In this document: piece after piece, positions 15,160-46,779 of the stretch | How positions within the stretch are numbered: the first letter of the stretch is position 1 | How the letters are laid out: every line of letters begins with the position of its first letter | From: a virus | Strand: one strand, 5' to 3' | Length of the DNA stretch: 47,460 bases | IMG/VR virus record: IMGVR_UViG_3300007644_000005 | Span: 1-47,460 of that record | Position numbers and translations under genes: made by a program | The notes under the pieces: generated by a model | What the model saw: the letters and a program-made list of their open reading frames with translations, nothing else | What the model was told of the DNA's origin: nothing | Database searches by the model: none

Positions 15160-15175
15160 TATTTATTAATAAATA
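15160..15175 (-). promoter_or_regulatory. Palindromic late-type promoter before TerS candidate
   Basis: TATTTATTAATAAATA is a perfect 16-bp palindrome. The minus-strand box starts 23 bases before the ATG at 15152. The same sequence gives a box facing the other way, into the 3' end of the sigma gene, so antisense transcription is possible. Confidence 0.7.
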
Positions 15176-15889
15176 TCACGCATCCAAATAACTATCCTTA
15201 AAAAGCTTATATAATGACTTAAACCTTTTCATACTATTCCTAATTTCTTTAGTATTTAAGCCAGTCATATTGCGTATATATAGTAAAATAAGGTTTTTAT
15301 TAAACTTGGGTGAATTTTTACCATCAGTTACCTGTGAAAATAATTCTCGCCATTCTTCAAGTATTTTTACCAGGGAATGTCCAACCTTAAATTCATTATC
15401 GGATAAATCGTCAGCTTTTAAATCTTCTCTAATACTCGATGCTAACGACTCAATAAACATAGTTAAATCAATATCATCATTATCTATTCGATAAAGTAAT
15501 TCATCTCTTTTTAAGATATCACCTTCACTTTGATCAATATCAACGATTGACATGTTCTTTTTATATTCTTTAACCATTTCACCAAATAGGTAATTTTTAC
15601 AAATAGTACCGAAATATGAAAATGATCTCTTACCCTTTTCTGGTTTGAACTTTTCAAACTTTGTCATTAAAAATGATAGGGTGTCTGCATGTAGATCGTT
15701 GAACTCGTAAGATTGTCTATATAATTTATAGGTCCTAATAATACTTTCTATCATTGTATTGATAGGTTCTTGTAAATATTCTCTATAAATTTTTTCTCGT
15801 TCTTCAACATTAGTGGCATCTAGAAACATGATCACCGCCATTTCTTGATCTACACCATAGTAGTTGCGGTCTTTTTTCTTTCTTGCCAT
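15176..15889 (-). CDS. 55: Late sigma factor (T4 gp55-like)
   Basis: A 237-aa protein (T4 gp55 is 185 aa). Residues about 60-112 match the sigma region 2 pattern seen in gp55: FNDLHADTLSFLMTKFEKFK, a short loop, RSFSYFGTICKNYLFGEMVK and a basic end KEYKKN. In gp55 this part contacts the RNA polymerase clamp and the -10-like box. The C-terminal 60 residues (NKNLILLYIRNMTGLNTKEI onward) are helical, could contain a helix-turn-helix and exceed T4 gp55. It would direct host RNA polymerase to late promoters; the TATTTAT boxes in this window are the natural target (inference). It is last in the operon HAD-like, GT-B, GT2, sigma, joined to the GT2 gene by TAATG. Confidence 0.8.
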   Translation of the reverse strand: MARKKKDRNYYGVDQEMAVIMFLDATNVEEREKIYREYLQEPINTMIESIIRTYKLYRQSYEFNDLHADTLSFLMTKFEKFKPEKGKRSFSYFGTICKNYLFGEMVKEYKKNMSIVDIDQSEGDILKRDELLYRIDNDDIDLTMFIESLASSIREDLKADDLSDNEFKVGHSLVKILEEWRELFSQVTDGKNSPKFNKNLILLYIRNMTGLNTKEIRNSMKRFKSLYKLFKDSYLDA

Positions 15890-16722
15890 TACTCACTAAC
15901 TTCATTTTCCTCATAAATTATATTTCTATCTTCGTTAAACAAATACTCTTTTTTAGCGGCATCCATCCAAAATAAAGCTTCTTGCGGTTGTATCTTATAT
16001 TCAAGAGCTTCACTGTTTTTGTATAGCCAGAATAAAGAACCCTCTCTCATGTTTACGTGTTTATAACCTATTTTAGGTATAACCATAGACTTGTAACCAT
16101 TTTTATGGAAACGAAGTAAAAACTCGTAATTAAACGTTAATTTAATTTGTTTTAAACCCTTAATCTCATTAAAGACAGTGGTTTTAATTACCATACCACA
16201 AAGGCTTATATTCGGGTACTCAAGTAAAACGTCTAGATCTAAGTTACCTAAACTTTCGGTAAAGTTGTATGCCCAAACCGCTTCATTAGAAAATCCAACG
16301 AACTCATTTTTTTCCGTAACATCATTAACGATAGGTAAAAACATATCTACCTCTGGATAGGCTTTAACATACTCATCGACATTTTTATACCATGTTTTTG
16401 ATACCTCATCATCAAATTCCAAAATACTCATATACTCAGTATTAACATGTTTTGCTGCATAGTTAATCTGACTTTGGTAGTCGGTATCAAATTCGTTAAT
16501 TATTGTTCTAACATTTAGGTCCTTATAAGCTGTAAAGTCAATCGACTCCATTTTACTCACAACTTCCGCACAATTACATGTTACTATTAAAACCTCTTCT
16601 GGTTTAATTTCATTTCTATTAATAGATGACATTGCAATATCAAATAAGTCATCAAATTTTTGGTTCCCAACATTAGCAACTGAATGCACTGGGATTATGA
16701 CTGTTAAATTAGTTTTGCTCAT
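15889..16722 (-). CDS. GT2 family glycosyltransferase
   Basis: A 277-aa GT-A fold enzyme. It begins with the family start LTVIIPVHSVANVGN (res. 6-20), has the strand IKPEEVLIVTCN, and an acidic cluster EFDDE (about 118-122) where the metal-binding DXD belongs, followed by KTWYKNVDEYVKAYPEVD as in GT2 enzymes. The C-terminal region has LRFHKNGYK and an HVN triplet that may form the acceptor site. The likely reaction is transfer of a nucleotide-activated sugar; substrate unknown. It overlaps the upstream GT-B gene by 14 bases and the sigma gene by one. Confidence 0.85.
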   Translation of the reverse strand: MSKTNLTVIIPVHSVANVGNQKFDDLFDIAMSSINRNEIKPEEVLIVTCNCAEVVSKMESIDFTAYKDLNVRTIINEFDTDYQSQINYAAKHVNTEYMSILEFDDEVSKTWYKNVDEYVKAYPEVDMFLPIVNDVTEKNEFVGFSNEAVWAYNFTESLGNLDLDVLLEYPNISLCGMVIKTTVFNEIKGLKQIKLTFNYEFLLRFHKNGYKSMVIPKIGYKHVNMREGSLFWLYKNSEALEYKIQPQEALFWMDAAKKEYLFNEDRNIIYEENEVSE

Positions 16723-17788
16723 TTTGTTCTACTGATTTATTAATGTTTTCTTTTATTGTTTCTAATTTTCCGATTTTTTTGTTAAAGAGATATTCAAAAA
16801 CCTCACTAACGTTTTTATCAAAAATATCACTAGTATATCTGTCTAAAATTGTTTGGTCAACAGATTTTAAATTTTCAGGTAGTGTATCCTCTAACCAATT
16901 TTTAATAAAGCTGGAAACTATTTCAGCGATTTGGTTTTCATCATAAACCCAAATACCATTATCATCCGTCATCCACTCTGGTATAATGTTAGGTACTTTA
17001 CCGATAACTGGTACATTACACTTGATTGATTCAATAGGGAATCTACCGAAAGATGAATCGTCATCAACCCAAATTGATACGGCACACTCTCTAAGATTTT
17101 GTGCAAAGTCCTCATGATTCATAGCGTGCATATCTTTGAATGAGATAAACCTATAAAGTGGGTATTTTAAGTAGAATGCCTTAATAATTTTTGCTGCTTT
17201 TCTTGTGTCCCTACAGTGTATCGCAATGATTGGTTTTTGTGGTTTATCATTTCTTTTGAATGAGTCGCCAATAAATGGTTCAATAAATTGCACGTCTTTA
17301 ACTGGCACGGTATCTTCAATCATATTTTTTAACGTGTTACTAGTTGTAATACATTCCTCAACACCAAGATCAGTCCAAGATTTTCCTGGTGAAAAAGCTT
17401 CTAACATATAATCGTATGATTGAACATAAATAACCTTTTCAATGGTCATTTTTTCTATCTGTTCGAAAACGCTTCCATAAACTTCAGGTACGATAATAAA
17501 ATCTGAAGGGCCTACAACTAGATTATTGTCTTCAATTGACATGTGCTCTAATTCATCACATTCAGCACCATACCAAGAACCGACTTTAATAAAGTCATTC
17601 TTTTCGTGTAGTATTGATACATTATATCCCATTTTTTTAAGTGTTAGTGCTTGTGAATAAATGTGCATAACACTAGATTTAGCATTACCTTTAGTATCAG
17701 GTACTAAAAAGATAATTTTTTGTTCCTTATTTTTAATTTTTTCAATAGCGGAATCAAGATTTTTAAGTATTTCTTTAGTTTTTTCCAT
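16709..17788 (-). CDS. GT-B glycosyltransferase (GT4-like)
   Basis: A 359-aa protein. The N-terminal domain starts after a 20-residue helix with KIIFLVPDTKGNAKSSVMHI and contains QALTLKKMGYNVSIL, typical of GT4 acceptor domains. The C-terminal Rossmann half has PIIAIHCRDTRKAAK and the donor-site motif FGRFPIESIKCNVPVIGK (about 247-265), equivalent to the E-x7-E signature. No signal peptide or membrane anchor. It probably adds one sugar from a nucleotide donor in the host cytoplasm. It overlaps both neighbours (14 bases each). Confidence 0.85.
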   Translation of the reverse strand: MEKTKEILKNLDSAIEKIKNKEQKIIFLVPDTKGNAKSSVMHIYSQALTLKKMGYNVSILHEKNDFIKVGSWYGAECDELEHMSIEDNNLVVGPSDFIIVPEVYGSVFEQIEKMTIEKVIYVQSYDYMLEAFSPGKSWTDLGVEECITTSNTLKNMIEDTVPVKDVQFIEPFIGDSFKRNDKPQKPIIAIHCRDTRKAAKIIKAFYLKYPLYRFISFKDMHAMNHEDFAQNLRECAVSIWVDDDSSFGRFPIESIKCNVPVIGKVPNIIPEWMTDDNGIWVYDENQIAEIVSSFIKNWLEDTLPENLKSVDQTILDRYTSDIFDKNVSEVFEYLFNKKIGKLETIKENINKSVEQNEQN

Positions 17789-18413
17789 TTTTTTCCTTAT
17801 TTAGTTTTTTTAGGGTTTTAAATAATTCTTTATTGTTAATAATAGTATAATCCGACTTAATGTCAAGATTAAAATCATTTTGGTATTTGACTGAGATTTT
17901 ACCTTTTGGCTTCGCCTTTAAAATTTTAGGGTTATCGGTAATAATGACATCACACTCAACCCAAAAATCTTTCCATTTTTGTGGAAACAATATCTTATTT
18001 AGGTTAAAGTAGTTCTTACTTAGGAAAAATAATGTTGCTGCTTTTGATCTCTGGCTTTCATTATTTAATAATACAATCTCTAGCTTACTTTTTTTAGAGA
18101 AGTCCGATATCTTTTTTATTAGTCCAGGCTCTGTCTCATCGGTTCTTCCGAAAATTTCAAAACATGCATCTTCGTACAAAAATTTATCTAAATTAAAAGA
18201 ACCGTCTTTTTTATTTTCAACTAGTTCAACCTCTTCTTGATCTGGTTTAAACTCAATTGATTCTGTTTCACCAGTAATGTCTGGGAATGATGCTTGTAGG
18301 TTGAATGGATTTATAGGTTCGATAGCTTCTTTTTCAAACTCAAACTCATATAAATCCTTCAACTTACTTAAATGATCCCTAAGGATATTATTTACTGTTA
18401 TACCGATAACCAT
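17775..18413 (-). CDS. HAD-like protein lacking catalytic aspartates
   Basis: A 212-aa protein with the outline of a HAD-superfamily phosphatase: motif I position MVIGITVNNILRD (res. 1-13), motif II in EIVLLNN (about 110-116), Lys-rich motif III region and motif IV in CDVIITDNP (about 154-162). The phage and bacterial phosphatases with this start read DxDGxLRD; here the two aspartates are replaced by Thr and Asn (TVNN), so normal phosphoaspartate chemistry is not expected. The insert of residues 25-85 is acidic. It opens the operon leading to the two glycosyltransferases and the sigma factor. It may be a regulator or binding protein. Confidence 0.6.
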   Translation of the reverse strand: MVIGITVNNILRDHLSKLKDLYEFEFEKEAIEPINPFNLQASFPDITGETESIEFKPDQEEVELVENKKDGSFNLDKFLYEDACFEIFGRTDETEPGLIKKISDFSKKSKLEIVLLNNESQRSKAATLFFLSKNYFNLNKILFPQKWKDFWVECDVIITDNPKILKAKPKGKISVKYQNDFNLDIKSDYTIINNKELFKTLKKLNKEKNGKN

Positions 18414-18414
18414 A

Positions 18415-18438: not shown

Positions 18439-18463
18439 AGTCTGGTAAGTAGAAAAATAAAGA

Positions 18464-19219: not shown

Positions 19220-19226
19220 ATCGTTT

Positions 19227-24415: not shown

Positions 24416-25864
24416 TTAGATTATAAAGTCTTTTTTATCTAGTTCCGAATAAAATTTTTCCGAGTGTTCTTCTTTCGGAAAGGCGTATTCAAAACCAAGT
24501 TTATTTTTTTTATTAAAGTCGCTAATTCTTTTTTTATAAATAGACATTCTATTTAAAAAATAGTCTAGACCTAATCTTTTATAATGTAATAGTTTTATCG
24601 GTTCATTAAAATATTTAACGTCACCCATTGGGGCTGCCACGTGACACCCAAAATTAAAGTTAATTGACTTTATATTTTTTGGTTTAAACATTACTAATTT
24701 ATCAAATAAACTATTTCTAAAACCAGTTTTTACAATATCAGTTAACTTATGGTCATAATCAAAATTAAATTTTTCTATTATCATATCATAACCCTCTGGT
24801 TTTACTATAGTTGAGTCGCTGTTATGGAAGTCTATAATATATTTTTTAAAATCATCAACATATAAAAACTCATCCATATCACAAACAATAACAATATCAG
24901 CCTCATTAACCGAATTTTTCCAAGCGTTATTTTTTATCTGTAAATAAGCGTCATCACGTATTTCGCCTTTAGTGTCGTAAGGTACGACTAACGTTTTGGG
25001 GTGTTTCCTTAATAACTTAACACTATTGTCGTTTGATTTATTATCATAAACAATTATTTTGTCAACATAATTTTCATAGTGTTCTAAGAAAAACGGTATA
25101 ATTTTTTCTTCATTCCAACAAAGGACGTGCATATGGACTTTTGGTAAAGCCTTGTCAAAAATTATATGTGAGTTTTCATTCAAACATATTGGTAATTTAT
25201 TAGAATATAAACCCTCAAATTTTACTTTATTGGTTTCCCAGGTTTCATTTGTTTGACCAACAGATTTATGTAATAAAAGGATGTTGGATATTAAGCCCAC
25301 TTTAACGCCAGATAAATGGTTATCAAAACAAAATGGTATATCATAAAAATGAAAGCCCTCAAAGGACTCATTAAATCTGTTTTTGATTTTTTCTCTATTT
25401 ACTGCAATAAATAAACCATCAATGGTAACCATTTCTTTTATTTGATTACCGTAGCTTTCAGAATACTTATTAGTCCAAACTTTAACACCATCTGTATGTT
25501 TTACAGTTCCGTGCATCGAGTTCCTTATTGACCACCATCTACCATCAATCATATGATCGGTACCAGCAACACCTAAAATACCATATTCTGGATTTTTTTC
25601 GAAGTGTTTTATAACTTTTTCACCCCAGTTTTTAGTTTCAAAAATAATATCATCGTGACAAAAAATAACAATATCAGAATTAGCCTCATCTAAACCACGA
25701 TTATAAAGTTCAGCCAGGGAATATTCATTGTTATTTTCATACGCAATAACTTCAACACCCTTATACATACACGTTTTTTTAACGTGATCAACAAAAGCAT
25801 TATCGACTTTCCTAGTTGAAAATACTACACTAATTTTTGGTTTATCCGTTATCATCGTCATCAT
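24416..25864 (-). CDS. Two-domain glycosyltransferase
   Basis: A 482-aa protein with two GT-A domains. The first (res. 9-225) has ISVVFSTRKV, SLAELYNRGLDEANSDIVIF, the metal motif HDD (70-72) and GILGVAGTDHM, as in glycosyltransferases related to streptococcal surface-glycan enzymes. The second (242-450) starts KVHMHVLCWNEEKIIPFFLE, has IIVYDNKSNDNSVKLL and DMDEF (329-333), resembling GT2/GT92 enzymes. The start is uncertain: ATG codons at 25864, 25861 and 25855 all lie within the end of the upstream 104-aa gene; the last gives MITDKPKISVVF. An internal TATTTAT box at 24537-24543 is not near a gene start. Confidence 0.85.
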   Translation of the reverse strand: MMTMITDKPKISVVFSTRKVDNAFVDHVKKTCMYKGVEVIAYENNNEYSLAELYNRGLDEANSDIVIFCHDDIIFETKNWGEKVIKHFEKNPEYGILGVAGTDHMIDGRWWSIRNSMHGTVKHTDGVKVWTNKYSESYGNQIKEMVTIDGLFIAVNREKIKNRFNESFEGFHFYDIPFCFDNHLSGVKVGLISNILLLHKSVGQTNETWETNKVKFEGLYSNKLPICLNENSHIIFDKALPKVHMHVLCWNEEKIIPFFLEHYENYVDKIIVYDNKSNDNSVKLLRKHPKTLVVPYDTKGEIRDDAYLQIKNNAWKNSVNEADIVIVCDMDEFLYVDDFKKYIIDFHNSDSTIVKPEGYDMIIEKFNFDYDHKLTDIVKTGFRNSLFDKLVMFKPKNIKSINFNFGCHVAAPMGDVKYFNEPIKLLHYKRLGLDYFLNRMSIYKKRISDFNKKNKLGFEYAFPKEEHSEKFYSELDKKDFII

Positions 25865-31146: not shown

Positions 31147-31706
31147 TACTTTAATGATTTTTCAAAATAAGATAATAGTATCTTTTTTTCAGCCTCGCTC
31201 ATATTATTATTGAAGAATTCAATTATCTGATCAAATTTACCTAAAATTAAGTTTTCTTTTTTTCTAATTTCATCGATAGTTGGCTCCTCTTTTAACATTA
31301 TTTCTGATTTCTCAGCTTTTTTAGCTAATAAAGTTTCTAGCATTTTAAATGCTTTTTCTTTGGAGATTTCTTTAAGCTTATCTTTTGGGTTTGCTGGTTT
31401 TACATCCTTTTTAGGTTTCACCTCAAGAAAATAATCCTCGAAGGTATCCTCCATACCCTTTTCGTATAGGAATTGATAAAACTTACCAGGATTATCTTTA
31501 CACCCATCAGCCTCATTATTAAAGGGTAATGTCGCCTCACCATAGTATCTTCTATAGTTTTGAAAAACGAATGGTTGTCTAGTTTTTAAAATACTAGCGT
31601 CAGTTGTATCATGTGATGTTGCGGTATAATCAATATATTTTTTATCACCTTTGATTATATCACCATCTGCGTCAATGAATTCTTTAATGTCTTTATTACC
31701 TTCCAT
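31146..31706 (-). CDS. Unknown 186-aa protein, first gene of a late operon
   Basis: A 186-aa acidic protein: the N-terminal 80 residues contain a Tyr/Phe-rich patch (VFQNYRRYYGEATLPFNN), and the rest is Lys/Glu helices likely to be coiled coil. Not recognised. It heads the operon 31706 to 28854 behind a late-type box at 31720-31726. Confidence 0.65.
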   Translation of the reverse strand: MEGNKDIKEFIDADGDIIKGDKKYIDYTATSHDTTDASILKTRQPFVFQNYRRYYGEATLPFNNEADGCKDNPGKFYQFLYEKGMEDTFEDYFLEVKPKKDVKPANPKDKLKEISKEKAFKMLETLLAKKAEKSEIMLKEEPTIDEIRKKENLILGKFDQIIEFFNNNMSEAEKKILLSYFEKSLK

Positions 31707-31719: not shown

Positions 31720-31726
31720 ATAAATA
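31720..31726 (-). promoter_or_regulatory. Late-type box in an inverted repeat
   Basis: The minus strand reads AAGATATTTATAAG; the box begins 20 bases before the ATG at 31706. The stretch forms an inverted repeat, AAGATATTT-6-AAATATCTT, between the box and the start codon. Confidence 0.65.
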
Positions 31727-34700: not shown

Positions 34701-34855
34701 TCTGTTTCAATATAGTTACCTTTGTCTGGGTCTTGCTTGATTTTATGTATCAGGTTTGTTTCAGAATCATATTCCACATTCACGATATACTTCTCGTCAT
34801 CGTGACCGATAAGAAACTTTTCGATATCCTCAAGTGGGATTTTATATTCTGCCAT
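31751..34855 (-). CDS. 43: DNA polymerase, family B (T4 gp43-like)
   Basis: A 1034-aa replicative polymerase with 3'-5' exonuclease. Exo I FVFDLETTGLD (171-181), Exo II IIAGYNSANFDWDFF (229-243), Exo III RYLIDDLWETM (502-512); polymerase motif A MDYNSLYPAI (588-597), motif B KIFINSMFGALGAPQAF (654-670), motif C TVLDTDGVNF (704-713). The second Asp of motif C (DTDG) is kept. It is about 130 residues longer than T4 gp43 (898 aa); extra sequence lies mainly between Exo II and Exo III (about 330-500). It has a host-type promoter, fitting early expression, and is surrounded by late-type operons on the same strand. Confidence 0.97.
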   Translation of the reverse strand: MAEYKIPLEDIEKFLIGHDDEKYIVNVEYDSETNLIHKIKQDPDKGNYIETEPLMAFMWIKNLNKIKELVNFYGNSDSRIRSARQKFGIDIISLETGDHPKLVNGYKYLVTCSQGHKRMMDFFREGGIYIYDTRHDIKSHFLILNPVEQYFIHTGKRLFKGFEEYDDIHKFVFDLETTGLDPEINRIFLIGIYTNKGDKQIIPIEDNDDSEREAITKFFEVINQIKPTIIAGYNSANFDWDFFFVRCKKLGINIQDIAITLKPGELINTKPSMLKLGNEVEDYTQVNMFGYSIIDIIHSARRAQAIDSSMKSVGLKYVCQYNKIAKKNRVYIVGDKIGKYWYSEDKFYFDDRDGKYTFTKPTIEFMDNITRDIVQQNPDKFFVYDENETLEGFGQQSKELRGEPNTIAIITKKNQYNEVDSFFNDNDLEGNKVKINACIREIIQKLKEGKTVVFPVEVPGNGESKLSEKAPKTHEFLMLTYKALRDYVNTIQEVDGKYIVERYLIDDLWETMEVDAVYNQTSFMLAKLIPTTYQRVSTMGTAGLWKLLMLTYSFENNLAIPLSDTKREYTGGLSRLFKVGFSRELRKMDYNSLYPAIQLAHDVFPEVDINGAMKSMLKYFHTERFRAKKLSDKYKKEGNYQLADKYKRKQLPLKIFINSMFGALGAPQAFQWAEIDTSEQITCTARQYLRLMVRFFIDKGYTPTVLDTDGVNFMAPEGGEDHFTYVGKGYNDEVEEGKEYRGVKAVVAEFNDTYMRGEMGLGLDGQWPATINLSRKNYALLEDDGSISLTGNSIKSKKLPVYIEEFLDKGIKMLLTGQGYEFVQYYYQYFDKIYNREIPLAKIATKARVKKSVSGYANRGTDKNGRQLAKQAHMELAIKHNLQVNLGDTIYYVNNGKTKSHGDAQEDKHGNMYATLVPNDIIENQPDFIGEYNVPKYLDAFNSRLKPLMVAFDKEIRDLILITKPEQKRAFLKSELELVNDQPDDIEDQDTLQDFFTPSDMEMEFWEKKEYKADFWFDKDIIFRIPGFGEEIQV

Positions 34856-34871: not shown

Positions 34872-34902
34872 CAAATATAATAATTAAATTGACTCCTACA
34901 AA
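34872..34902 (-). promoter_or_regulatory. Bacteroidota-type promoter for DNA polymerase
   Basis: On the minus strand TTTTG (TTTG at 34902-34899), a 19-base spacer and TATATTTG (34879-34872) match the host consensus exactly. The -7 box ends 16 bases before the ATG at 34855. Confidence 0.75.
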
Positions 34903-34922: not shown

Positions 34923-35324
34923 TTAAACTATGTCGGTTTTTACGAAAGAATCCAAAATATGGATATACAATTGTTCGTGTATTGGTGCGATTAGTTCACC
35001 GTAAACATTTGATGGTGATGCCAAATCAAAAAGAGTTAATTTAAACTCACCCAAAAATACACCTGGTTTGTCTGTATCATCTTTTGTGAACTGGTAAGTT
35101 ATGATGTAGTGTTTTCTACCGTCTTCGTCACAAGGGTTTTCCAAGACTATATTTGCCGTTTTGTTAGCAACTTTGTAAATACCCGTTTTTTCGTCTTTCA
35201 TCGCAAAAGTTGCAACGCAATTTTCGATTAATTCCTCAAATCTTCTAAAATCGTTTCTCCCATCCCTAAAAACTTTCATTTTTAAGATCGGTAACGTTGA
35301 GTTTTGTCTAATACTGAATATCAT
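34923..35324 (-). CDS. Unknown 133-aa protein with its own late promoter
   Basis: A 133-aa protein, likely beta-rich (KHYIITYQFT, GVFLGEFKLTLFD), with an N-terminal helix (FRRFEELIENCVATFAM). I cannot identify it; the strand-rich body and C-terminal YGELIAPIHEQLYIHILDSF might suggest a tail completion or connector protein. It overlaps the 491-aa gene by one base, but has a separate late-type box 22 bases upstream inside that gene, so extra copies are likely made. Confidence 0.7.
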   Translation of the reverse strand: MIFSIRQNSTLPILKMKVFRDGRNDFRRFEELIENCVATFAMKDEKTGIYKVANKTANIVLENPCDEDGRKHYIITYQFTKDDTDKPGVFLGEFKLTLFDLASPSNVYGELIAPIHEQLYIHILDSFVKTDIV

Positions 35325-36799
35325 TAGAATAAGTTTTTTATAAATATCTTTCTACCACCCTTTATTACGTTTAAACCATAATAATCAGCGATATTATTAA
35401 CCATTTTTTTAATTTCAAAAGCGTACAAAGGTAAACAATACATTTGAAAAACCTTTACACCACCAGTAAATGTCCCAGCAAAAAATTTCTCAAGAACAGT
35501 ATCTATTTTTTTATTTGTGTCCAAGTATAAAGCGTCTAAAAGGTTTTGTGTACCACCCCCAAAAGAGAAGTTAAATGGTACGCCCTCTTGTAAGTTATCC
35601 TCAACGGTTAATTCGTGCGGTATAACCTCGATAAAGTCATATTTCTTTAGAACACTAAAACCGTTTATGTAAATTGAGAAGGTACCCTTTTTATAATCAC
35701 CATATTTTAAAGCACACTTACTATCGTATGCAAAATCCCTTTCAAAAACAGAGCTTATATGTAAAAATTTGTTTTCGGTTACGTCTATAACGGGTTTTTT
35801 TGTATATGTCTCTTCTATAGTGAAATATTTTGTTACGATTAACCACGTATCGTAGTTATCACAGTCACTAGTTGGTTCTTTAATAAAAGAGCTTGTTGTT
35901 ATACCAGAAACTTCTTGTGTTGCTCCAGTATAACAAACATCAGTTGGGTAGATCATTCTATATCCTATCCTACCGTCATTTGTAACTCTTATACCAAACG
36001 CATTGTAATATAAGTCAACATACTCTTGGTGATATTGTAATTTTTGTGATTCGGCTGTAAATCTTCTACCAGTGTACATAATACCGTTGTAATAGTTGAA
36101 GTACCCTATATATTTTGATGTGCCGTTTAAACTGATTAAACCATTATAAGTGTATAAATTTTGTAATTCCTTTGGTATTATATTATAATCGTTTTCAAAT
36201 TTTTGTACTTCTACTTCGGTTTGATTGGCGTATTTACTTTCAGCCCTAGTACCCATATAGAAAATAAAACCACTATTATCTGGATATGCTTGGTTTAGTG
36301 TTGTCCCTGTTGTTGTCCCTGTTGTTGAACCAGTCATCGGGAAATGGACTATAGAATTAAATGACCAACCTTTTCTTGCTCGAGTTGGGAACCACTCAAC
36401 ATTTTTATTATGTATTTTATAAAAGCCCTGGTAAAACCCACCATCTAATTTATTATAATACACACCATTGTCAACCTTTAACTTATCTATGTTGTATGTG
36501 AAGTTACCAGTATAACCAGAAACCTCATGAAAACAAAACGTATCACCAGATTCAACAAGATAAGCAATGTCAGGGTCTATTGTACCGTTACCGTTGTTAA
36601 TAAAGAAATTGTCGTACCCGTTTAACCCAATATTTTCCAATGGGACGTTTTCAGATTGAGTTATTTGTGAACCACAAAGGCTAACAGTCACATCGATATC
36701 AATTAATTTACATTCATTGACGTCTCTATAGAAATCACGGCAGTCTTTTGTGATAACTATATCAAAATATTCACTCTTGTCTAACTCAGTATAAAACAT
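35324..36799 (-). CDS. Probable virion protein with short Thr repeat
   Basis: A 491-aa, beta-rich and Tyr/Asn-rich protein. Residues about 100-400 have a lectin-like or sandwich-like series of strands (WSFNSIVHFPM, GFIFYMGTR, GRIGYRMIYPTD, GTFSIYINGFSVLKKYDFIE). A short repeat TGSTTGTTTGTT at 156-167 is similar to the long array at 10084-10425. The C-terminus FAGTFTGGVKVFQMYCLPLY is also strand-rich. In T4 the fibritin gene lies next to gp13, but no coiled coil is seen here. It probably is a neck or tail appendage. It overlaps gp13 by one base. Confidence 0.7.
   Translation of the reverse strand: MFYTELDKSEYFDIVITKDCRDFYRDVNECKLIDIDVTVSLCGSQITQSENVPLENIGLNGYDNFFINNGNGTIDPDIAYLVESGDTFCFHEVSGYTGNFTYNIDKLKVDNGVYYNKLDGGFYQGFYKIHNKNVEWFPTRARKGWSFNSIVHFPMTGSTTGTTTGTTLNQAYPDNSGFIFYMGTRAESKYANQTEVEVQKFENDYNIIPKELQNLYTYNGLISLNGTSKYIGYFNYYNGIMYTGRRFTAESQKLQYHQEYVDLYYNAFGIRVTNDGRIGYRMIYPTDVCYTGATQEVSGITTSSFIKEPTSDCDNYDTWLIVTKYFTIEETYTKKPVIDVTENKFLHISSVFERDFAYDSKCALKYGDYKKGTFSIYINGFSVLKKYDFIEVIPHELTVEDNLQEGVPFNFSFGGGTQNLLDALYLDTNKKIDTVLEKFFAGTFTGGVKVFQMYCLPLYAFEIKKMVNNIADYYGLNVIKGGRKIFIKNLF
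35340..35346 (-). promoter_or_regulatory. Late-type box inside a coding region
   Basis: The minus strand reads AGATATTTATAAAAAAC; the box begins 22 bases before the ATG at 35324, within the last codons of the 491-aa gene. The fixed distance indicates it is functional. Confidence 0.65.
36299..36334 (-). repeat. Short Thr/Gly repeat
   Basis: Three 12-bp units encode TGST-TGTT-TGTT, the same unit type as the large array at 10084-10425 in another structural gene. Confidence 0.8.
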
Positions 36800-37890
36800 T
36801 ATATTATCTTAATTGGTTTTTGGAATGCTCTGTACTTTAACGCTTTATTAATTTCTTCAGCTTCCATTGACATTCTTTTTAATATTTCTAAAGGATTTAA
36901 TTTAAACATCCTATCCTCTAGCTCTTTCTTAAGTGTTATCATCTCATCTTTACCTTCAGATAGTAATGATTGATATTCTATCTCCATATTAGCATCTGGC
37001 ACTGGTATTTTACCACCAAAAGTACCTCTAACACGACCAAGTGTTTCTTTACATAATGCGATGAAATATCTCCTAACCCAAGTTTTAGAAGGGTCATTAA
37101 GATCGTCATAATTAATATTATCCAACGGAACATCCATTGGTGATTTAATTACATCTTTATTTAATTCAAAACATTCATCTTTTTGTTCTGGGTTTATATC
37201 GTAATACCAATACCAAACCTTTGCTTGGTTCATTGTTGCGCCTCTAAAATCATATTTACCACCTGGGGTGTTCATTAAATGAAGAAACTTCTTACCATCA
37301 GGTGCATTTGTTATTTTATAAACCAATTCAGATCTAATTATTCTATTTTTTAAGTTTCTATCTGTTGATCGCATTAAAATATCAAAGGCTGGTAAAATAT
37401 AATAACTACCTAGGCCCATATATTCTGCACCAAATTGGTTATTCCACACGCCTAAAAATGGGTCAATTACCGATTGATCTAATGAAGCTGGTGTAAACCA
37501 TAAAACTTCATTAATTTCCCTATTGGCTGGTATTTCGTAAAGTTGTTGCCCCTTAACTAGTTCAATATAATCTTTCTTTAAGACATACCCACCTTCTCCA
37601 GCACCAAGACCGACAATCTTAGAGTAAGAGTATGTGTATTGGGTCACCAAGTCAAATGTCCTATATAATAGGGCTCTGGTTAAATCGGCTGAGGAGATAT
37701 TTAAACCTATTAAGCTAGGCCACTGGTGTTCAATTAACCAATTATGTATGAATTCGGTGTAGTCTTCAAGCGCTATCTCTAATAGCGAATCCATTTGTTC
37801 CTCTTCTAATTGTATTTTTCGAATTGGTGCACCAAGCCTATGTTTGGCTTGTTTGTAAATTTTTTCCTTTTCAACTGGATTTATCTTCAT
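36799..37890 (-). CDS. 13: Neck protein (T4 gp13-like)
   Basis: A 363-aa protein (T4 gp13 is 309 aa). The N-terminus KQAKHRLGAPIRKIQLEEEQ, followed by ALEDYTEF, is the hallmark of the family; KGQQLYEIPANREINEVLWF and the C-terminal WVRRYFIALCKETLGRVRG, FGGKIPVPDA with a helical end also match. gp13 and gp14 join portal to the tail. Residues 150-265 are an insertion with Tyr/Trp-rich text. It heads a three-gene late operon on the minus strand, while the gp14 and gp15 candidates lie 3 kb away on the plus strand. Confidence 0.88.
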   Translation of the reverse strand: MKINPVEKEKIYKQAKHRLGAPIRKIQLEEEQMDSLLEIALEDYTEFIHNWLIEHQWPSLIGLNISSADLTRALLYRTFDLVTQYTYSYSKIVGLGAGEGGYVLKKDYIELVKGQQLYEIPANREINEVLWFTPASLDQSVIDPFLGVWNNQFGAEYMGLGSYYILPAFDILMRSTDRNLKNRIIRSELVYKITNAPDGKKFLHLMNTPGGKYDFRGATMNQAKVWYWYYDINPEQKDECFELNKDVIKSPMDVPLDNINYDDLNDPSKTWVRRYFIALCKETLGRVRGTFGGKIPVPDANMEIEYQSLLSEGKDEMITLKKELEDRMFKLNPLEILKRMSMEAEEINKALKYRAFQKPIKII

Positions 37891-37898
37891 TGTCCTAA

Positions 37899-37913
37899 TA
37901 TTTATTATAAATA
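37899..37913. promoter_or_regulatory. Bidirectional late-type promoter
   Basis: TATTTATTATAAATA reads as a TATTTAT box on both strands: 24 bases before the plus-strand ATG at 37923 and 23 bases before the minus-strand ATG at 37890. The 32-base gap thus serves the GP88-like and gp13 genes. Confidence 0.75.
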
Positions 37914-37922
37914 GTTAGAAAG

Positions 37923-39074
37923 ATGAGTAAAACAACCCTTAATGAAACGATAAACAGAATTAAACAAAATTCTGGGATAATGGTGTTTGAAGCCGATATT
38001 AATGAAATTGACTGGGAAAAAGATTTTAAAGATGTTTCTAAAAAATGTTTAAACCCTAGTGAATTGGCTAATTATTTAAATAAAGTTATTGATAATAGTC
38101 AGAAAAAATCAGCTGACAAAGAAAAAATAGGTTTAGATAAACCAATAATTCACGCTAAAGCAATACCGTTCGATGAAGAAGGTGAGTTAGATATTAACGA
38201 ATTCATTAGTAAGATAACAGCAATGCCTAATGATATATTAAGTGTTAATGAAAAAATGCAAAAATCAAATGATGACGGAACTTATAACGTTAACATTGGT
38301 ATACCAGCTTTAAGGGGTTTAGTTTATGATATAGATGAACAAAAATTTTATATCGTTAACACCTGTCCAGGTGCGGGTAGTTGTGCTATGGTTTGCTACG
38401 CAAGAAGAGGTAGTTATATACAATATCCAGGTGTTTTTTTAAAACAAACTAAAGTACTTAACCTACTCTTAAATTACCCAGATAGATTTGAAAAAATTCT
38501 AATTCGTGAATTGGAGACCACGCTGTTAAAAAACCCAGATAAACAAGTTAATTTTAGGTGGAATGATGCGGGTGATTTTTTTGCAACAAAATATTATGAG
38601 ATTGCTGTTAGAATAACCAACACTTTACTTAAAGATGGTTATAATATTAAATCATATGCCTACACAAAAATGGGTGAAATCGTTAATTTAGGTGACCCCA
38701 ATTTCCTTATAAATTTCTCTAATGACGCAAATAAACGAGAAACTGAAAAAGTTAAAGATATTGATAATGCTAAGCAAGCCGTTATTGTACCAAAAGAGCT
38801 TTTTGATGATTTATTTATGAAAGAAAAAGGGTCATATGCAGTAGATTCAAAAGGTAAACCCGTTTTTAAGGATGAGGACGGTGTTAATACATTAAAGACT
38901 AGATTGGCTAATGAATATAAAGTTGATGTTAAAACAATTTTAACATATGACGAACTATTAAGGACACCAGTTGGCAATGAAAAACAATATAATGTTGTTG
39001 TTATGCCAAAAGGTGACGGTGATGTGGGTGCCCAAAGATCAGACGTTAAAATGTCTTTTCTATGTTTTCACTAA
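37923..39074 (+). CDS. GP88-family protein (Cys cluster)
   Basis: A 383-aa protein of the phage GP88 family (described in mycobacteriophages, function unknown). Core signatures: NTCPGAGSCAMVCYARRG (res. 146-163) with Cys148, Cys154 and Cys158; QVNFRWNDAGDFFATKYYEI (208-227); SYAYTKM (244-250). The three Cys could bind a metal or cluster, and the order of motifs resembles radical-SAM-like proteins (inference). The N-terminal 110 residues are helical and extra; residues 270-360 also look like an insertion before the C-terminal segment GDVGAQRSDV. It has the bidirectional late box. It converges on the SNF2 helicase with a 15-base 3' overlap. Confidence 0.75.
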   Translation: MSKTTLNETINRIKQNSGIMVFEADINEIDWEKDFKDVSKKCLNPSELANYLNKVIDNSQKKSADKEKIGLDKPIIHAKAIPFDEEGELDINEFISKITAMPNDILSVNEKMQKSNDDGTYNVNIGIPALRGLVYDIDEQKFYIVNTCPGAGSCAMVCYARRGSYIQYPGVFLKQTKVLNLLLNYPDRFEKILIRELETTLLKNPDKQVNFRWNDAGDFFATKYYEIAVRITNTLLKDGYNIKSYAYTKMGEIVNLGDPNFLINFSNDANKRETEKVKDIDNAKQAVIVPKELFDDLFMKEKGSYAVDSKGKPVFKDEDGVNTLKTRLANEYKVDVKTILTYDELLRTPVGNEKQYNVVVMPKGDGDVGAQRSDVKMSFLCFH

Positions 39075-40931: not shown

Positions 40932-40939
40932 TATTTATA
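40932..40939 (+). promoter_or_regulatory. Late-type promoter box TATTTATA
   Basis: AAACTATTTATATAAAAAGA lies with the box starting 19 bases before the ATG at 40951. Matches the terminase box almost base for base over 20 bases. Confidence 0.75.
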
Positions 40940-40950: not shown

Positions 40951-41472
40951 ATGGAAAGAAAAACTAGGATACCGAATACGAGGTTAAATAGGTTCTATGA
41001 CGAAGAAGATTTTAGGTTGGAGTTAGATATGGCCACCGAATTAATCGAAGGTGATATGAACTTTACAGTAGTTCTTTTTAGGATTGATAGAGTAAATACG
41101 CAGGTTGATGACGTTTACTGGGAAAGTAATCCTAGGGATATTAGATTTAAAGCACCAGTTGAATTAAAGGTAATTCTAAATTTAGCTAACGGTGAAAACA
41201 AATCTTACTCACCAAATGGTAATTTAAGGTATCAAGATTATGGTAATTTAGAGTTTACTGTCTTACAAAAGCAGTTAGATGAGAAAGGTGTTGAGATAGG
41301 TTATGGTGATATTGTTGGTTATTCTGACAGGGAAAATAACTTTAAATACTTTAGTGTTTTTGATGACGACACGATAAATACCGATAACCCTAGTACGCAA
41401 TATGGTTACTCTGGTTATTTCAGAAGAATAAAATGTACAAACGTTGACCCTAACGTATTTAATGGTGTATAA
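40951..41472 (+). CDS. Possible neck protein (gp14-like)
   Basis: A 173-aa beta-rich protein. After a helical start (TRLNRFYDEEDFRLELDMAT), MNFTVVLFRIDRVNTQVDDV, FKAPVELKVILNL, YQDYGNLEFTVLQKQLDEKG and YGDIVGYSDRENNFKYFSV form strands in the order seen in T4 gp14, where a YRV-x-N-T segment, long strands and an iegDliy segment follow each other. This is similarity of pattern, not a diagnostic motif. Position just before the gp15 candidate and sheath fits. It is smaller than T4 gp14 (256 aa). Confidence 0.5.
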   Translation: MERKTRIPNTRLNRFYDEEDFRLELDMATELIEGDMNFTVVLFRIDRVNTQVDDVYWESNPRDIRFKAPVELKVILNLANGENKSYSPNGNLRYQDYGNLEFTVLQKQLDEKGVEIGYGDIVGYSDRENNFKYFSVFDDDTINTDNPSTQYGYSGYFRRIKCTNVDPNVFNGV

Positions 41473-41474
41473 AA

Positions 41475-42302: not shown

Positions 42303-42309
42303 TATTTAT
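42303..42309 (+). promoter_or_regulatory. Late-type box before tail sheath
   Basis: AATATTTATCAGTAAG begins 46 bases before the ATG. The leader that follows, ending ATTAAATAGA then ATATG, resembles that of the tail tube gene. Confidence 0.6.
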
Positions 42310-42348: not shown

Positions 42349-45300
42349 ATGGCAAACAAAGTTTATGCATCTCCAGGTGTTTACACGACTGAAAAAGACC
42401 TAACATTCACAACTGAAACAGTTGGTGTTACTACGTTAGGTGTAGTTGGTGAAACGTTAAAAGGCCCAGCCTTCCAACCAATTTTCGTTAGAAATTTTGA
42501 CGAATATAAAACTATATTTGGTGGAACTAGTCCTGAAAAATTTAAAAATACTCAAATTGTAAAGTATGAATTACCTTACATTGCTAAGCAGTATTTAACA
42601 CAATCAAATCAATTATACGTAACAAGGCTTCTTGGTTTATCAGGGTACGACTCTGGTATGTCATGGGTTGTTAGAACATTGGGTGCTTGTGATGAAAGTA
42701 CATTATCACATACAGGTATTACTGAACAAGAATTTGAATTTAGCTTTAATACAGCTACAAATCAATTCTATGTTGCTGGTAATGTTTCGTTGATTAATCA
42801 TTTATCACAATTAACTGGTGTTAATGCTAATGAATTTGATTGTGTATTTAACACCTTCTTCACAACTATCGGTGGTTATACAAACGCTTCTTTCTACGAT
42901 AAGAAGCATGCGATGTATTGGGGTTTATTGACCAATGATATTGATACCGCATTAGTTAATGATGCAACATCTATAAACATCTTTACACCAAGTTATGTTG
43001 ATGCTTATGAGTTGCCTGTAACGGTTCCAGCTAACGATAGAGATGCGTATGTGTTAAATAATGAATTAATTTATGATAGCACAACACAAACTTACTCTGG
43101 ACCTAGTTTTGCTTTATTCTGTCATAGTTTTACTGGTGTTAATGCTACCGTTATTAAGGGTACATTAAAATTGTATACGGTTACTTTAAATTGTAACCCA
43201 TATACTGAAGGTCATAATAAAACTATCGCTACAATTAAGAGTAGAGGTGGTTATGTTTCTGACATTTTGAAGTATAACACGGCTTCTTTGGGTATGATTG
43301 CCCCAGCTAATTTAACAAGTGACCCATATGTTTCATTTGATTTAACTGGTACAACCGCTAACCCAACAGGTGGAACTTTTTCATACACCGTTTCATTAAA
43401 TAAAACAAATTCTAACTACATTAAAAAAGTAATTGGATCTACTTTAACAGATAAAGATTCACATATTTATGCTGAAGAAGTTTACGACCAAACTTTAGCT
43501 GATGGTTGGTATAAAGGAAAAATCAAAGGTTTGTACACCGAATTAGTTGGTGTTAACAACTGGGATCACTACAAATTCCAATATCAATCACCTGTTACTC
43601 CTTTTATTGTATCAGAATTAAGAGGTGGTGTGCCGCAAAGATTGTTTAGATTAATTTCTATTTCAGACGGTACTAACGCTAACTACGAAATAAAGACTTC
43701 AATCGCCAATGTTGATCTATCTAAGAAGACATTTGATATTTACATCAGATCTTTCTCAGATACAGATAAAAACCCAGTTATTATCGAAAGATTTGTTGAT
43801 TGTACAATGGATGAAACTTTAGATAACTACGTTGGTAGAAAAATAGGTACTATCGACAACAAATACCCTCTTAAGAGTGCTTATGTCGTATTAGAACCAG
43901 CTATCAATGCACCTAAAGATGCTATTCCTGCTGGTTTCGAAGGTTATGAGTTCAGAACTAACGGTGAAACTGATTATACAGAAACAGCTGTCCCTGAAAT
44001 GCCTTACAAAACTAAATATTTTGCGCCTGGTGATGTTATTTATAACCCACCATTTGCTAACCCAGTCATCTCAAACGGTGATAAAGTAAACAAAAACTAT
44101 TTAGGTTTCTCAAGCCAATTTGGTTTTGATAAAGACTTGTTATTGTTTAAAGGTAAAGTTAGTATTTTAGGTGATAACGCTTACAACACTGGTGATGATT
44201 ACTTCACTAAAACTAAAGGCTTCCACATGGATATTAACGCTTCAGCGTTGGTTGATTCTGTGACTGGAGAACAAGTTTTCTCAACTGGTGTGGCTTCATT
44301 TAATGATGCAACAACTGTTGATGGTACTGCGACTCACCCGTATAACAACATGAGAACAAGAAAATTCACTTTATTATTTGCAGGTGGTTTTGATGGTTGG
44401 GACGAGTTTAGATTAAACAGAACTAATACTGATGAGTATAAGATAGGTAGAACTGGTTTCGTTGCTTCACAATTTGATACTTTCACAAATGTTGAGTACG
44501 CTGAATTGTTTGGTACTTCCGACTACTATGCTTACTTATATGGTATTAGAACATACCAAAACCCTGAAGAAACACCAATTAATATCTTAGCTACCCCTGG
44601 TATTGACGTATTAAACAATACAGACTTGGTTAGAGATGCAATTGAGGTTGTTGAGGAGAAAAGATTGGATGCTATTTACTTACCTACATTACCTGATATT
44701 AAGTTGTTAAACAATAACAACCCTTCAGATACTGAAAGTTGGTATTATGCTGAAGATATCGTTGATGAGTTAGAAAACACTGAAATCGATTCAAACTATA
44801 CAGCGGTATACTATCCATGGATTCAAATCACTGATACCGAAAATAATGCAAACTTGTTTATTCCACCTACAGCTGAAGTTGTTAGAAATATGGCTTATAC
44901 AGATAACGTAGCATTCCCTTGGTTCGCAACCGCAGGTTACAATAGAGGTTTGGTTAAATGTAATAGAGCACGTATCGTTCTTGATCAAGAAGCTAGAGAT
45001 ATTTTATATCCAGGTAGAATTAACCCATTAGCGACTTATTCAGACGTTGGTGTTGTTATCTGGGGTAATAGAAACTTACAAGTTAGATCTAGTGCTCTTG
45101 ATAGATTAAACATCAGAAGATTGTTGTTACAAGCTAGAAGATTGATTATGTCTGTATCAAAAAGATTATTATTTGATCCAAATGATACGACAGTTAGAAA
45201 TCAATTCTTGTCATTGGTTAACCCAATCTTGGATAACATTAGAAAAGAAAGAGGTTTAACAGACTTCAGAGTTAGTGTTGCAATGGACGTTGAGGATAAT

Positions 45301-45411
45301 GATAGAAATACTTTGAGAGGTAAAATCTTCATTAAACCAACACCAACATTGGAATTCATCGAACTTGAATTCGTTGTTACACCGCAAAACGTTTCTTTCG
45401 ATAACATTTAA
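42349..45411 (+). CDS. 18: Tail sheath protein (T4 gp18-like)
   Basis: A 1020-aa contractile sheath protein; T4 gp18 has 659 residues. N-terminal ASPGVYTTEKDLTF (res. 7-20) and GVVGETLKGPAFQPIFVRNF are characteristic. The C-terminal 150 residues hold the conserved core and end: DVGVVIWGNRNLQVRSSALD, NIRRLLLQARRLIMSVSK, FRVSVAMDVEDNDRNTLRGK and LEFIELEFVVTPQNV. Roughly 300-350 extra residues in the middle probably form domains on the outside of the tail. In assembly it polymerises round the gp19 tube. Codons are more biased (many AAC, TTG, AGA) than in nearby genes, fitting high expression. Confidence 0.94.
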   Translation: MANKVYASPGVYTTEKDLTFTTETVGVTTLGVVGETLKGPAFQPIFVRNFDEYKTIFGGTSPEKFKNTQIVKYELPYIAKQYLTQSNQLYVTRLLGLSGYDSGMSWVVRTLGACDESTLSHTGITEQEFEFSFNTATNQFYVAGNVSLINHLSQLTGVNANEFDCVFNTFFTTIGGYTNASFYDKKHAMYWGLLTNDIDTALVNDATSINIFTPSYVDAYELPVTVPANDRDAYVLNNELIYDSTTQTYSGPSFALFCHSFTGVNATVIKGTLKLYTVTLNCNPYTEGHNKTIATIKSRGGYVSDILKYNTASLGMIAPANLTSDPYVSFDLTGTTANPTGGTFSYTVSLNKTNSNYIKKVIGSTLTDKDSHIYAEEVYDQTLADGWYKGKIKGLYTELVGVNNWDHYKFQYQSPVTPFIVSELRGGVPQRLFRLISISDGTNANYEIKTSIANVDLSKKTFDIYIRSFSDTDKNPVIIERFVDCTMDETLDNYVGRKIGTIDNKYPLKSAYVVLEPAINAPKDAIPAGFEGYEFRTNGETDYTETAVPEMPYKTKYFAPGDVIYNPPFANPVISNGDKVNKNYLGFSSQFGFDKDLLLFKGKVSILGDNAYNTGDDYFTKTKGFHMDINASALVDSVTGEQVFSTGVASFNDATTVDGTATHPYNNMRTRKFTLLFAGGFDGWDEFRLNRTNTDEYKIGRTGFVASQFDTFTNVEYAELFGTSDYYAYLYGIRTYQNPEETPINILATPGIDVLNNTDLVRDAIEVVEEKRLDAIYLPTLPDIKLLNNNNPSDTESWYYAEDIVDELENTEIDSNYTAVYYPWIQITDTENNANLFIPPTAEVVRNMAYTDNVAFPWFATAGYNRGLVKCNRARIVLDQEARDILYPGRINPLATYSDVGVVIWGNRNLQVRSSALDRLNIRRLLLQARRLIMSVSKRLLFDPNDTTVRNQFLSLVNPILDNIRKERGLTDFRVSVAMDVEDNDRNTLRGKIFIKPTPTLEFIELEFVVTPQNVSFDNI

Positions 45412-45418
45412 TAAGTTT

Positions 45419-45452
45419 AGGGGGTACGAAGGTATCCCCTTTATTTCTTTTC
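45419..45452 (+). terminator. Terminator after tail sheath
   Basis: GGGGGTAC (45420-45427) pairs with GTATCCCC (45432-45439), with one G-T pair and loop GAAG, followed by the T-rich TTTATTTCTTTT. It lies nine bases after the sheath stop. Confidence 0.85.
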
Positions 45453-45528
45453 CATAGCTTAAAAAGCACCAACGGTAATTGAGATACTAATTAATAAAAA
45501 AGAAAGTAACAAAGAAAAAATAAATTAG

Positions 45529-45550
45529 AGTACTATTTATAATAGAGTAC
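45529..45550 (+). repeat. 22-bp palindromic repeat, copy 1
   Basis: AGTACTATTTATAATAG followed by AGTAC: nested inverted repeat with the late-type core TATTTATA at 45534-45541. Identical to copy 2. Confidence 0.85.
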
Positions 45551-45571
45551 ATAATATATGAAATTATATAT

Positions 45572-45593
45572 AGTACTATTTATAATAGAGTAC
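45572..45593 (+). repeat. 22-bp palindromic repeat, copy 2
   Basis: Exact repeat of copy 1, with starts 43 bases apart; the core TATTTATA is at 45577-45584. Both copies face the tail tube gene 140-200 bases downstream. Confidence 0.85.
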
Positions 45594-45691
45594 TTTGGTT
45601 AAGACCCTTAACAAAAATAAGGTTTGAAAATCAAAAAGTCAAGTTTTTTGAAAAAAATTTTTAAAAAAGTGTATAATTCGAAAAACAAAGA

Positions 45692-45699
45692 TATTTATA
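45692..45699 (+). promoter_or_regulatory. Late-type promoter box before tail tube
   Basis: AAGATATTTATATTAAAC begins 41 bases before the ATG at 45733. The leader then has AATAAAACAAATTAAATAGA, close to the sheath leader. Confidence 0.65.
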
Positions 45700-45732
45700 T
45701 TAAACAATAAAACAAATTAAATAGACAACAAT

Positions 45733-46221
45733 ATGGCTAACTTATTAATGAAAATGCCCGTTCCTTACGAACCAAAGAAAAAGAACAGGTTTATTTTGAG
45801 ATTCCCAAGTTCACTAGGTATTAACGAGTGGTTCGTAATATCTACTTCAAGACCAAAGGTAACAATAAACGAAGTTGAAATTCCTTTCTTAAATACTTCA
45901 ACATATGTTGCTGGTAGATTTAACTGGGAATCAATTGATGTTACATTCAAAGACCCTATCGGTCCTTCAGCTTCACAAGCATTGATGGAGTGGGTTCGTT
46001 TACACGCTGAATCAGTAACAGGTAGAATGGGTTATGCCGCAGGTTATAAAAAAGATATTGAATTAGAAATGTTAGATCCGACAGGTGTTGTTGTTGAAAA
46101 ATGGATTCTTCAAGGAACCTTCTTGACAAATGTTGACTTTGGATCATTGGAATATAGTGATGATGAAATCGCTGACATTACAGCTACATTAAGAATGGAC
46201 CGTTGTATCTTGGTTTATTAA
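45733..46221 (+). CDS. 19: Tail tube protein (T4 gp19-like)
   Basis: A 162-aa protein, the same size as T4 gp19 (163 aa). Features: RFILRFPSSLGINEWFVIST (res. 17-36), VEIPFLNTSTYVAGRFNWES (about 46-65), ITVxFxD-like IDVTFKDPIGPSASQALMEW (66-85), GYKKDIELEMLDPTGVVVEK and a C-terminal DITATLRMDRCIL that is typical of gp19. It builds the hexameric inner tube through which DNA passes. Own promoter and terminator suggest high, single-gene expression. Confidence 0.94.
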   Translation: MANLLMKMPVPYEPKKKNRFILRFPSSLGINEWFVISTSRPKVTINEVEIPFLNTSTYVAGRFNWESIDVTFKDPIGPSASQALMEWVRLHAESVTGRMGYAAGYKKDIELEMLDPTGVVVEKWILQGTFLTNVDFGSLEYSDDEIADITATLRMDRCILVY

Positions 46222-46250
46222 GAATTATATTATCAATTCAAAATTCATTT

Positions 46251-46280
46251 GGGGGACGCTTTGCGACCCCCTTTTTTTTT
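46251..46280 (+). terminator. Terminator after tail tube
   Basis: GGGGG (46251-46255) pairs with CCCCC (46267-46271), with an inner CGC/GCG pair, a single A-A mismatch and loop TTT, followed by nine T (46272-46280). Its T-run overlaps the stop codon of the convergent endonuclease gene. Confidence 0.9.
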
Positions 46281-46677
46281 AACCTTTAATTATACCATAT
46301 TTCTCAATAAACTTGTTAACTCGTTCAACAACTAAATTTGTTTTATCCATTTCATGTTCCCAAATAACCAATAAATTATAGGTCCTATCAAACTTAACTA
46401 GTTTGACTTTGTATTGGTCATTCCTTAAATTGGCTCTCTGGAATGCATATTTTGCTTCTGGCGAATGTTTTTTACAACAGTGGTAGAAACACCCATGAGT
46501 TTCAATTAAGACGTTGTAATCAACTAAAAGAAAGTCGAACTCTCTTTTCTTAAAAACAAAATGTCTTTCAAAGTTTATATTTTCTTGCTCAAGTAGTTCA
46601 GCGAACGAATCTTCTAATTTTGAAGTACCATTCATCTTTTTAACCATTTTAGCGAATTTACCTTTCTTTTTGGCCAT
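46279..46677 (-). CDS. Vsr-like (EDxHD/PD-(D/E)XK) endonuclease
   Basis: A 132-aa protein with a basic Lys-rich start. The helix SKLEDSFAELLEQENINFER (about 19-38), then REFDFLLVDYNVLIETHGCF with FYHCC (46-67) and RNDQYKVKLVKFDRTYNLLVIWEHEM (about 85-111) reproduces the Vsr / DUF559 nuclease layout. Candidate catalytic residues are Glu22, Asp48 and the ETHG His (about 60). Vsr-like folds occur in mismatch nicking enzymes and in EDxHD homing endonucleases of phages. It lies singly and on the opposite strand between tail tube and a baseplate gene, as free-standing homing endonuclease genes do. Self-spreading is inferred. Confidence 0.75.
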   Translation of the reverse strand: MAKKKGKFAKMVKKMNGTSKLEDSFAELLEQENINFERHFVFKKREFDFLLVDYNVLIETHGCFYHCCKKHSPEAKYAFQRANLRNDQYKVKLVKFDRTYNLLVIWEHEMDKTNLVVERVNKFIEKYGIIKG

Positions 46678-46770
46678 AATATTCTATTATTATAATAATT
46701 AGTTGTAAACTACCCTTTTACCGTCAAATTGATATTAAAAGGTAAAAAAAATAAAAAATACCGTTTACAC

Positions 46771-46779
46771 TATTTAATA
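46771..46779 (+). promoter_or_regulatory. Variant late-type box TATTTAATA
   Basis: CACTATTTAATATTAGAC begins 41 bases before the ATG at 46812, the same distance as for tail tube. The core differs by an inserted or changed base from TATTTATA. Confidence 0.45.

Follow-up and report, generated by a model that had tools for sequence, protein, structure and literature searches.

A TATTTAT box before putative late genes and a gp55-like sigma factor in a T4-related phage: comparative evidence for a probable variant of the T4 late-promoter system

The virus record IMGVR_UViG_3300007644_000005 of IMG/VR contains a gene for a gp55-like sigma factor and, before genes on both strands, a recurring heptamer, TATTTAT. 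The window analysed here is the entire record of 47,460 bases, and the sigma-like protein, of 237 amino acids, is encoded on its minus strand at 15176..15889. Is TATTTAT the promoter box of a class of late genes? And, if so, is it read by this protein? An earlier sequence-only reading of the window had proposed both, and had also suggested that the box was a mirrored or otherwise changed form of the T4 late box. Among the closest known systems is the late promoter of T4, which has the box TATAAATA at -13 to -6 and uses the sigma factor gp55, the co-activator gp33 and the clamp gp45. The case made below is comparative throughout, and it points to a real late-promoter class that is a variant of the T4 gp55 system.

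All 13 pre-gene box positions listed in the earlier reading are exact, at the distances it gave. With the distance d counted in bases from the box to the start codon, 13 of the 46 gene starts in the window have a sense copy 8–50 bases upstream. Circularly shifted gene maps averaged 0.91 such starts and never exceeded 6 in 2000 trials, shuffling the same upstream stretches gave a mean of 1.43, again with at most 6, and the best of 20 other heptamers with identical letter composition preceded 5 starts. The window has 47 copies in all, where dinucleotide shuffles predict 44, so that the total is at chance and uninformative; the signal is one of placement, not number. Copies inside genes are more numerous than the two that had been reported, there being 17 in the sense orientation and 13 antisense. 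An in-gene frequency equal to that upstream would have refuted the earlier reading, and it is clearly not seen: across the window and seven large related contigs, the density of sense boxes within genes is 0.07–0.39 per kilobase (kb), as against 3.0–5.5 per kb in the 50 bases upstream. When a matrix trained on the other contigs only was run on the window, 10 of its 14 best hits fell upstream of gene starts.

The seven large contigs (G001, G002, G003, G005, G006, G008 and G009; 150–321 kb, genes called mechanically) were scanned without bias for heptamers in the zone 4–32 bases before starts. TATTTAT ranked first in all seven, with for example 46 copies against 3.6 expected in G001, 34 against 0.9 in G006, 41 against 1.6 in G008 and 29 against 0.6 in G009, and its reverse complement was much weaker. 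Applied to the T4 late region as a control, the scan returned ATAAATA and TATAAAT as the top heptamers and so recovered the phage's own TATAAATA. Two A/T-rich phages of flavobacteria, FCL-2 and phi14:2, gave no enrichment (one TATTTAT against 0.9 expected). All 8 contigs retain the box before the genes for the tail sheath, the tail tube and the head-completion protein while the flanking bases vary, with the sheath and tube boxes of G001 standing at other distances than in the rest. Could the enrichment simply be a by-product of A/T-rich intergenic spacers? A guanine-plus-cytosine content of about 32% and a window total at chance would fit that idea, but permutations of the same composition, like the reverse complement, occur much less often in the same zones, equally A/T-rich control phages show nothing, and the box persists between diverging flanks. 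Barring a hidden bias common to all of these controls, the idea is already refuted, and we give it next to no chance.

The position of the box relative to the sigma gene itself is equally constant. In 22 of 22 viral loci, that of the cultured Flavobacterium phage immuto among them, a box stands between the sigma gene and the one that follows (15169..15175 in the window, minus strand, d=23 to the start at 15152), and the 60 bases upstream of the sigma gene never contain one. A fresh set of nine loci from bacterial genome bins has TATTTAT or TATTTA after the sigma gene in 7 cases. With no box on its own gene and boxes on those that follow, the sigma factor appears to be set up for production before the box-carrying genes. 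Viral contigs contain at least 79 relatives of the sigma-like protein (P0001), ranging from identical down to 45%, and distant relatives occur in immuto (25%), Microcystis phage Mel-JY01 and the uncultured phage LR756508. Further relatives occur in genome bins of Paludibacteraceae, Winogradskyella and other Flavobacteriales, as well as in a few stray bins. Because of these bins, and because the same contigs carry promoters of the Bacteroidota host type, the hosts are probably mostly Bacteroidota.

Which genes carry the box? Genes were classed through orthologues of annotated immuto and T4 genes as virion and packaging or as replication and metabolism. Of the 80 virion genes, 44 have TATTTAT upstream, as against 5 of 53 in the replication class (Fisher's exact test, 4.5e-8), and the host-type box TAnnTTTG shows the opposite bias, with 0 of 80 and 12 of 53 (7e-6). 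As kinship among the contigs means that these cells are not independent, a second count was made by gene family. Families with the box in half or more of the contigs number 10 of 15 in the virion class and 1 of 13 in the replication class (P=3.6e-4). Within the window, the DNA polymerase gene (31751-34855) has, in place of a late box, a host-type promoter of the Bacteroidota sigma-A form, TTTG-N19-TATATTTG, at 34872..34902 on the minus strand. This gene-class bias, together with the conservation across diverged contigs and the negative controls, lends good support to the late-promoter class that had been proposed, and the box very likely functions as a promoter.

Where would transcription start? 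In 164 short-leader sites aligned on the box, A occupies offset 11 in 90% and offset 12 in 86%. No T stands immediately before the box, A/T preferences further upstream are weak, and these aligned sites have neither a -35 consensus nor a TTTG at -33. At 64 sites where the box is 30–50 bases from the ATG, offset 11 is still A in 73%, with neighbouring columns at 34–62% (P=0.005 against a 57% baseline). The A is thus tied to the box, and the transcription start is probably the A 11–12 bases after its first T. Distances from box to ATG are bimodal, with 63 sites at 10–13 bases, 16 at 14–18 and 142 at 19–25. For the group at 10–13 this start would put the 5' end of the mRNA at the AUG or no more than 2 bases from it, so that leaderless late mRNAs are predicted. 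Start codons in this group agree in position with those of orthologues as often (97 of 121) as in the short-leader group (238 of 294), as against 1129 of 1792 for genes in neither class. A clear example in the window is gene 9274-10983, with a box at 10988..10994 (minus strand, d=11) and an mRNA predicted to be leaderless. Its orthologues in G001, G002 and G003 also have the box at 10–13 bases; those in G006, G008 and G009 share the same first methionine but have the box at 19–25 and short leaders.

Bacteroidota do without Shine-Dalgarno signals and use A/T-rich upstream regions instead. Might TATTTAT then be a signal for translation initiation by such ribosomes, particularly since most boxes lie within 25 bases of the ATG? 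The distances are bimodal, reaching 40–46 for tail genes, and the A at offset 11 is linked to the box and not to the ATG; on these two grounds the translation reading was rejected. In addition, the box is largely restricted to virion genes and absent from other flavobacterial phages, and host-type promoter boxes show the same two distances. We consider a translation signal very improbable.

The host-type boxes also offer a check on the register. In the same contigs they cluster at d=12, being most numerous in G001, and the mapped promoter box of Flavobacterium psychrophilum extends from -12 to -5 (PMC9723704), so that the late-box and host-box registers agree within one base. The argument that a gene is leaderless if a box stands about 12 bases ahead of its start codon has been applied earlier to bacterial genomes (PMC3160421). 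In G001 and other contigs TTTG-N17-21-TAnnTTTG likewise clusters exactly 12 bases before the ATG, which suggests leaderless early mRNAs too.

The sigma-like protein was described in the earlier reading as having the region 2 pattern of gp55 but a longer C-terminus; the homology covers sigma region 2, and there are about 100 extra residues. Single-sequence searches of PHROGs and Pfam, and a profile search of PDB sequences, yielded nothing convincing; the gp55 homology was missed by the single-sequence searches and required profile-profile comparison. By hhalign against seven T4-type gp55 proteins the family aligns over residues 4–118 (E=2e-5, probability 77%), although against T4 gp55 alone the match is weak (E=0.045, probability 1%). 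Of 18 family members, 15 match PHROG 234, "late sigma transcription factor" (best E 0.0012), and 12 match Sigma70_r2. A profile search of five phages, RM378, LR756508, T4, FCL-2 and phi14:2, found a protein in LR756508 (E=5e-50) and one at 17032-17826 in RM378 (E=1.9e-13); gp55 was the best T4 frame, at an E-value of 0.07 that is not significant alone. On these comparisons the protein is a remote gp55 homologue. An AlphaFold2 model of the full protein, from an alignment that left out the immuto row, is of moderate quality (predicted local distance difference test, pLDDT, 72; predicted template modelling score, pTM, 0.40). Its structural matches are headed by sigma factors, with none below E=0.001 in the PDB and one, unnamed, below that value in the viral set; they support a sigma identity without proving it.

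The C-terminal part has no such parallel. A helix pair at 193–228 is conserved as strongly as region 2, is helical in the model and lacks a counterpart in T4 gp55. The last residues vary between subgroups, and there is no short C-terminus with a hydrophobic clamp-binding motif as in gp55. Modelled alone, the domain is of good quality (pLDDT 81). We did not adopt the reading that it is a sigma region 4, as its model has no significant PDB match.

How does the box relate to that of T4? The two can be compared without reversing either: TATTTATA differs from TATAAATA in having T instead of A at positions 4 and 5. These two central substitutions make a mirrored box unnecessary, and that reading was dropped. 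The adenines at positions 2 and 6 are retained. T4 gp55 holds these two adenines in deep pockets; Y97 stacks the one at position 2, N13 and H95 hold position 5, and T99 holds position 6 (PMC7892883). By alignment the T4 residues R57, F86 and Y97 are kept as R52, F81 and Y92, while N13 is replaced by V, H95 by F or Y and T99 by G, L54 also being replaced. The box is changed at positions 4 and 5, and the match between altered pocket and altered base is suggestive only. There is a precedent for an altered late box in a T4-related phage, the CTAAATA of Aeh1 (PMC1524935), although Aeh1 is a close relative of T4 and its box is altered at the 5' end.

The distribution of box and protein among phages bears on which sigma factor reads the box. 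The two occur together in the window group and in immuto (30 boxes against 3.3 expected). Mel-JY01 has the protein and TATTTAT, mostly at 39–55 bases; LR756508 has the protein and TATTTAA (10 against 1.0 expected); FCL-2 and phi14:2 have neither the protein nor the enrichment. The Rhodothermus phage RM378 resembles the window group in having a gp55-like protein, at 17032-17826 and annotated as hypothetical, and a box, TATTTAA, before 39 of 145 genes (1.7 expected); it differs in the last box position, A instead of T, and in its commonest distance, exactly 13 bases before the ATG (L158, L163, L164). The gp55-like protein is the only sigma-like protein common to every box-bearing phage examined.

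Several observations weigh against the proposal that this protein reads a late-promoter box. The homology to T4 gp55 is remote, and the enrichment in Mel-JY01 is modest (21 against 6.8). About half of the virion genes have no exact copy of the box within 50 bases, and the major capsid gene has none directly upstream and must therefore be co-transcribed. Four contigs also encode a primary-type sigma factor of 262–268 amino acids with regions 2 and 4 (G001, L188; G002, L186; G003, L187; G005, L185), and RM378 also encodes a sigma factor of the extracytoplasmic function (ECF) type. Is the box then read by another sigma, either the primary-type one of the phage or an alternative sigma of the host? 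In G006, G008, G009 and immuto, family searches found no second sigma although the box is present, with the limit that these contigs may be incomplete, and this makes the gp55-like protein the simplest common reader. The host-type TAnnTTTG promoters are a better fit for the primary-type sigma, which may serve them; they are most abundant in a contig that encodes it. Moreover, the mapped sigma motifs of F. psychrophilum do not include TATTTAT (PMC9723704). A different reader thus seems to us unlikely. The earlier claim that the gp55-like protein reads the box has indirect support, in that the protein is a remote gp55 homologue shared by the box-bearing phages, and is weakened by the four contigs with a second sigma; on balance, it is likely. 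A family search for multisubunit RNA polymerases gave no match; one for single-subunit polymerases also gave none, but its control was unmatched too, which makes it uninformative.

We therefore propose, with a good measure of confidence in the whole, that TATTTAT is the -10-like element of late promoters in a T4-related clade infecting mainly Bacteroidota, and that the gp55-like sigma reads it. The extended box would be a non-T base followed by TATTTATA, N2, W and AA. The sigma factor, made from a boxless gene, would join the host RNA polymerase and open the DNA at the box, with no strong -35 element and with a start at the A 11–12 bases after the first T. This box would serve the genes for virion, packaging and tail, and replication genes would more often use the host-type TTTG-N17-21-TAnnTTTG. 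Boxes 10–13 bases before the ATG would give leaderless mRNAs and those at 19–25 bases leaders of about 8–14 bases.

Such a system would resemble that of T4 in placing a single A/T-rich box roughly one turn of the helix ahead of the start, in lacking a conserved -35, in serving late virion genes on both strands, and in using a phage sigma with region 2 and the common residues F86/F81 and Y97/Y92. Unlike T4, the box is TATTTATA and lies 11–12 rather than 13 bases before the predicted start, leaders are short or absent, the sigma has an added C-terminal domain, and no gp45 was found. Compared with Bacteroidota sigma-A promoters (TTTG-N-TAnnTTTG), the box-to-start register is nearly identical and both classes occur in the same contigs, but TATTTATA lacks the TTTG ends, there is no TTTG at -33, and the gene classes are opposite. 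Searches of eight genomes for a sliding clamp (PF02916, PF09116, PF00712) found none, although PF02916 does find that of T4; the contigs are possibly incomplete and clamps diverge, and for these reasons clamp independence can be offered only as a hypothesis. A single-sequence search for T4 gp33 had no match, by a method too weak to exclude gp33. It is conceivable, if doubtful, that this is a clamp-free gp55-type system in which the C-terminal domain replaces the gp33 and clamp contacts, that the box is TATTTAW across Bacteroidota phages, and that many late mRNAs start at the AUG, so that promoter placement also sets translation.

A search of open-licence PMC papers found no report of a TATTTAT late box. 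If the proposal is true, it would make available a usable map of late promoters in a widespread group of Bacteroidota phages, few of which have annotated regulation. It would also supply a natural series of sigma factors and boxes (TATAAATA, TATTTAT, TATTTAA) with which to study base choice by the T4 gp55 pockets. Finally, leaderless late mRNAs would be expected in a phylum in which mRNAs of this kind are rare (5.5% in F. psychrophilum; PMC9723704).

The remaining boxes of the window are as follows. On the minus strand, 173..179 precedes a partial gene starting at 130 (d=49), two overlapping boxes at 2767..2777 precede gene 2041-2754 (d=19 and 23), and 6689..6695 precedes the large terminase gene 4873-6672, which has a TTG start (d=23). 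On the same strand are 31720..31726 (d=20, gene 31146-31706), with the top matrix score of the window, and 35340..35346 (d=22, gene 34923-35324). Plus-strand boxes lie at 1661..1667 (d=35, gene 1696-1938), 40932..40938 (d=19, gene 40951-41472), 42303..42309 before the tail sheath gene 42349-45411 (d=46) and 45692..45698 before the tail tube gene 45733-46221 (d=41). Two boxes stand back to back, one at 37907..37913 on the minus strand before the head-completion or neck protein gene 36799-37890 (d=23) and one at 37899..37905 on the plus strand before gene 37923-39074 of the GP88 family (d=24). In this 32-base spacer, 37890-37923, the divergent putative late promoters overlap, both strands of one near-palindrome being used.

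Two in-gene sense copies on the minus strand have matrix scores equal to those of pre-gene sites and may be internal promoters. The first (24536..24542, within gene 24416-25864) is 128 bases before a start at 24414, and the second (5004..5010, in the 3' end of the terminase gene) is 150 bases before the start at 4860 and is a possible promoter of the portal operon.

Other features were noted near the main subjects. In most loci the sigma gene is followed by a small gene with a lysine-rich beginning (14772-15152 in the window; also seen in L190-L198), and in immuto by a baseplate cluster. Between the tail sheath and tail tube genes of the window, at 45518-45593, are two near-identical, hairpin-like 33-base repeats, each with GTACTATTTATAATAGAGTAC. 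In immuto another repeated element, approximately ATATTTAGGTATCAATAATTAAAA, precedes many small genes at 58–78 kb (L081) and is probably an early or middle promoter class.

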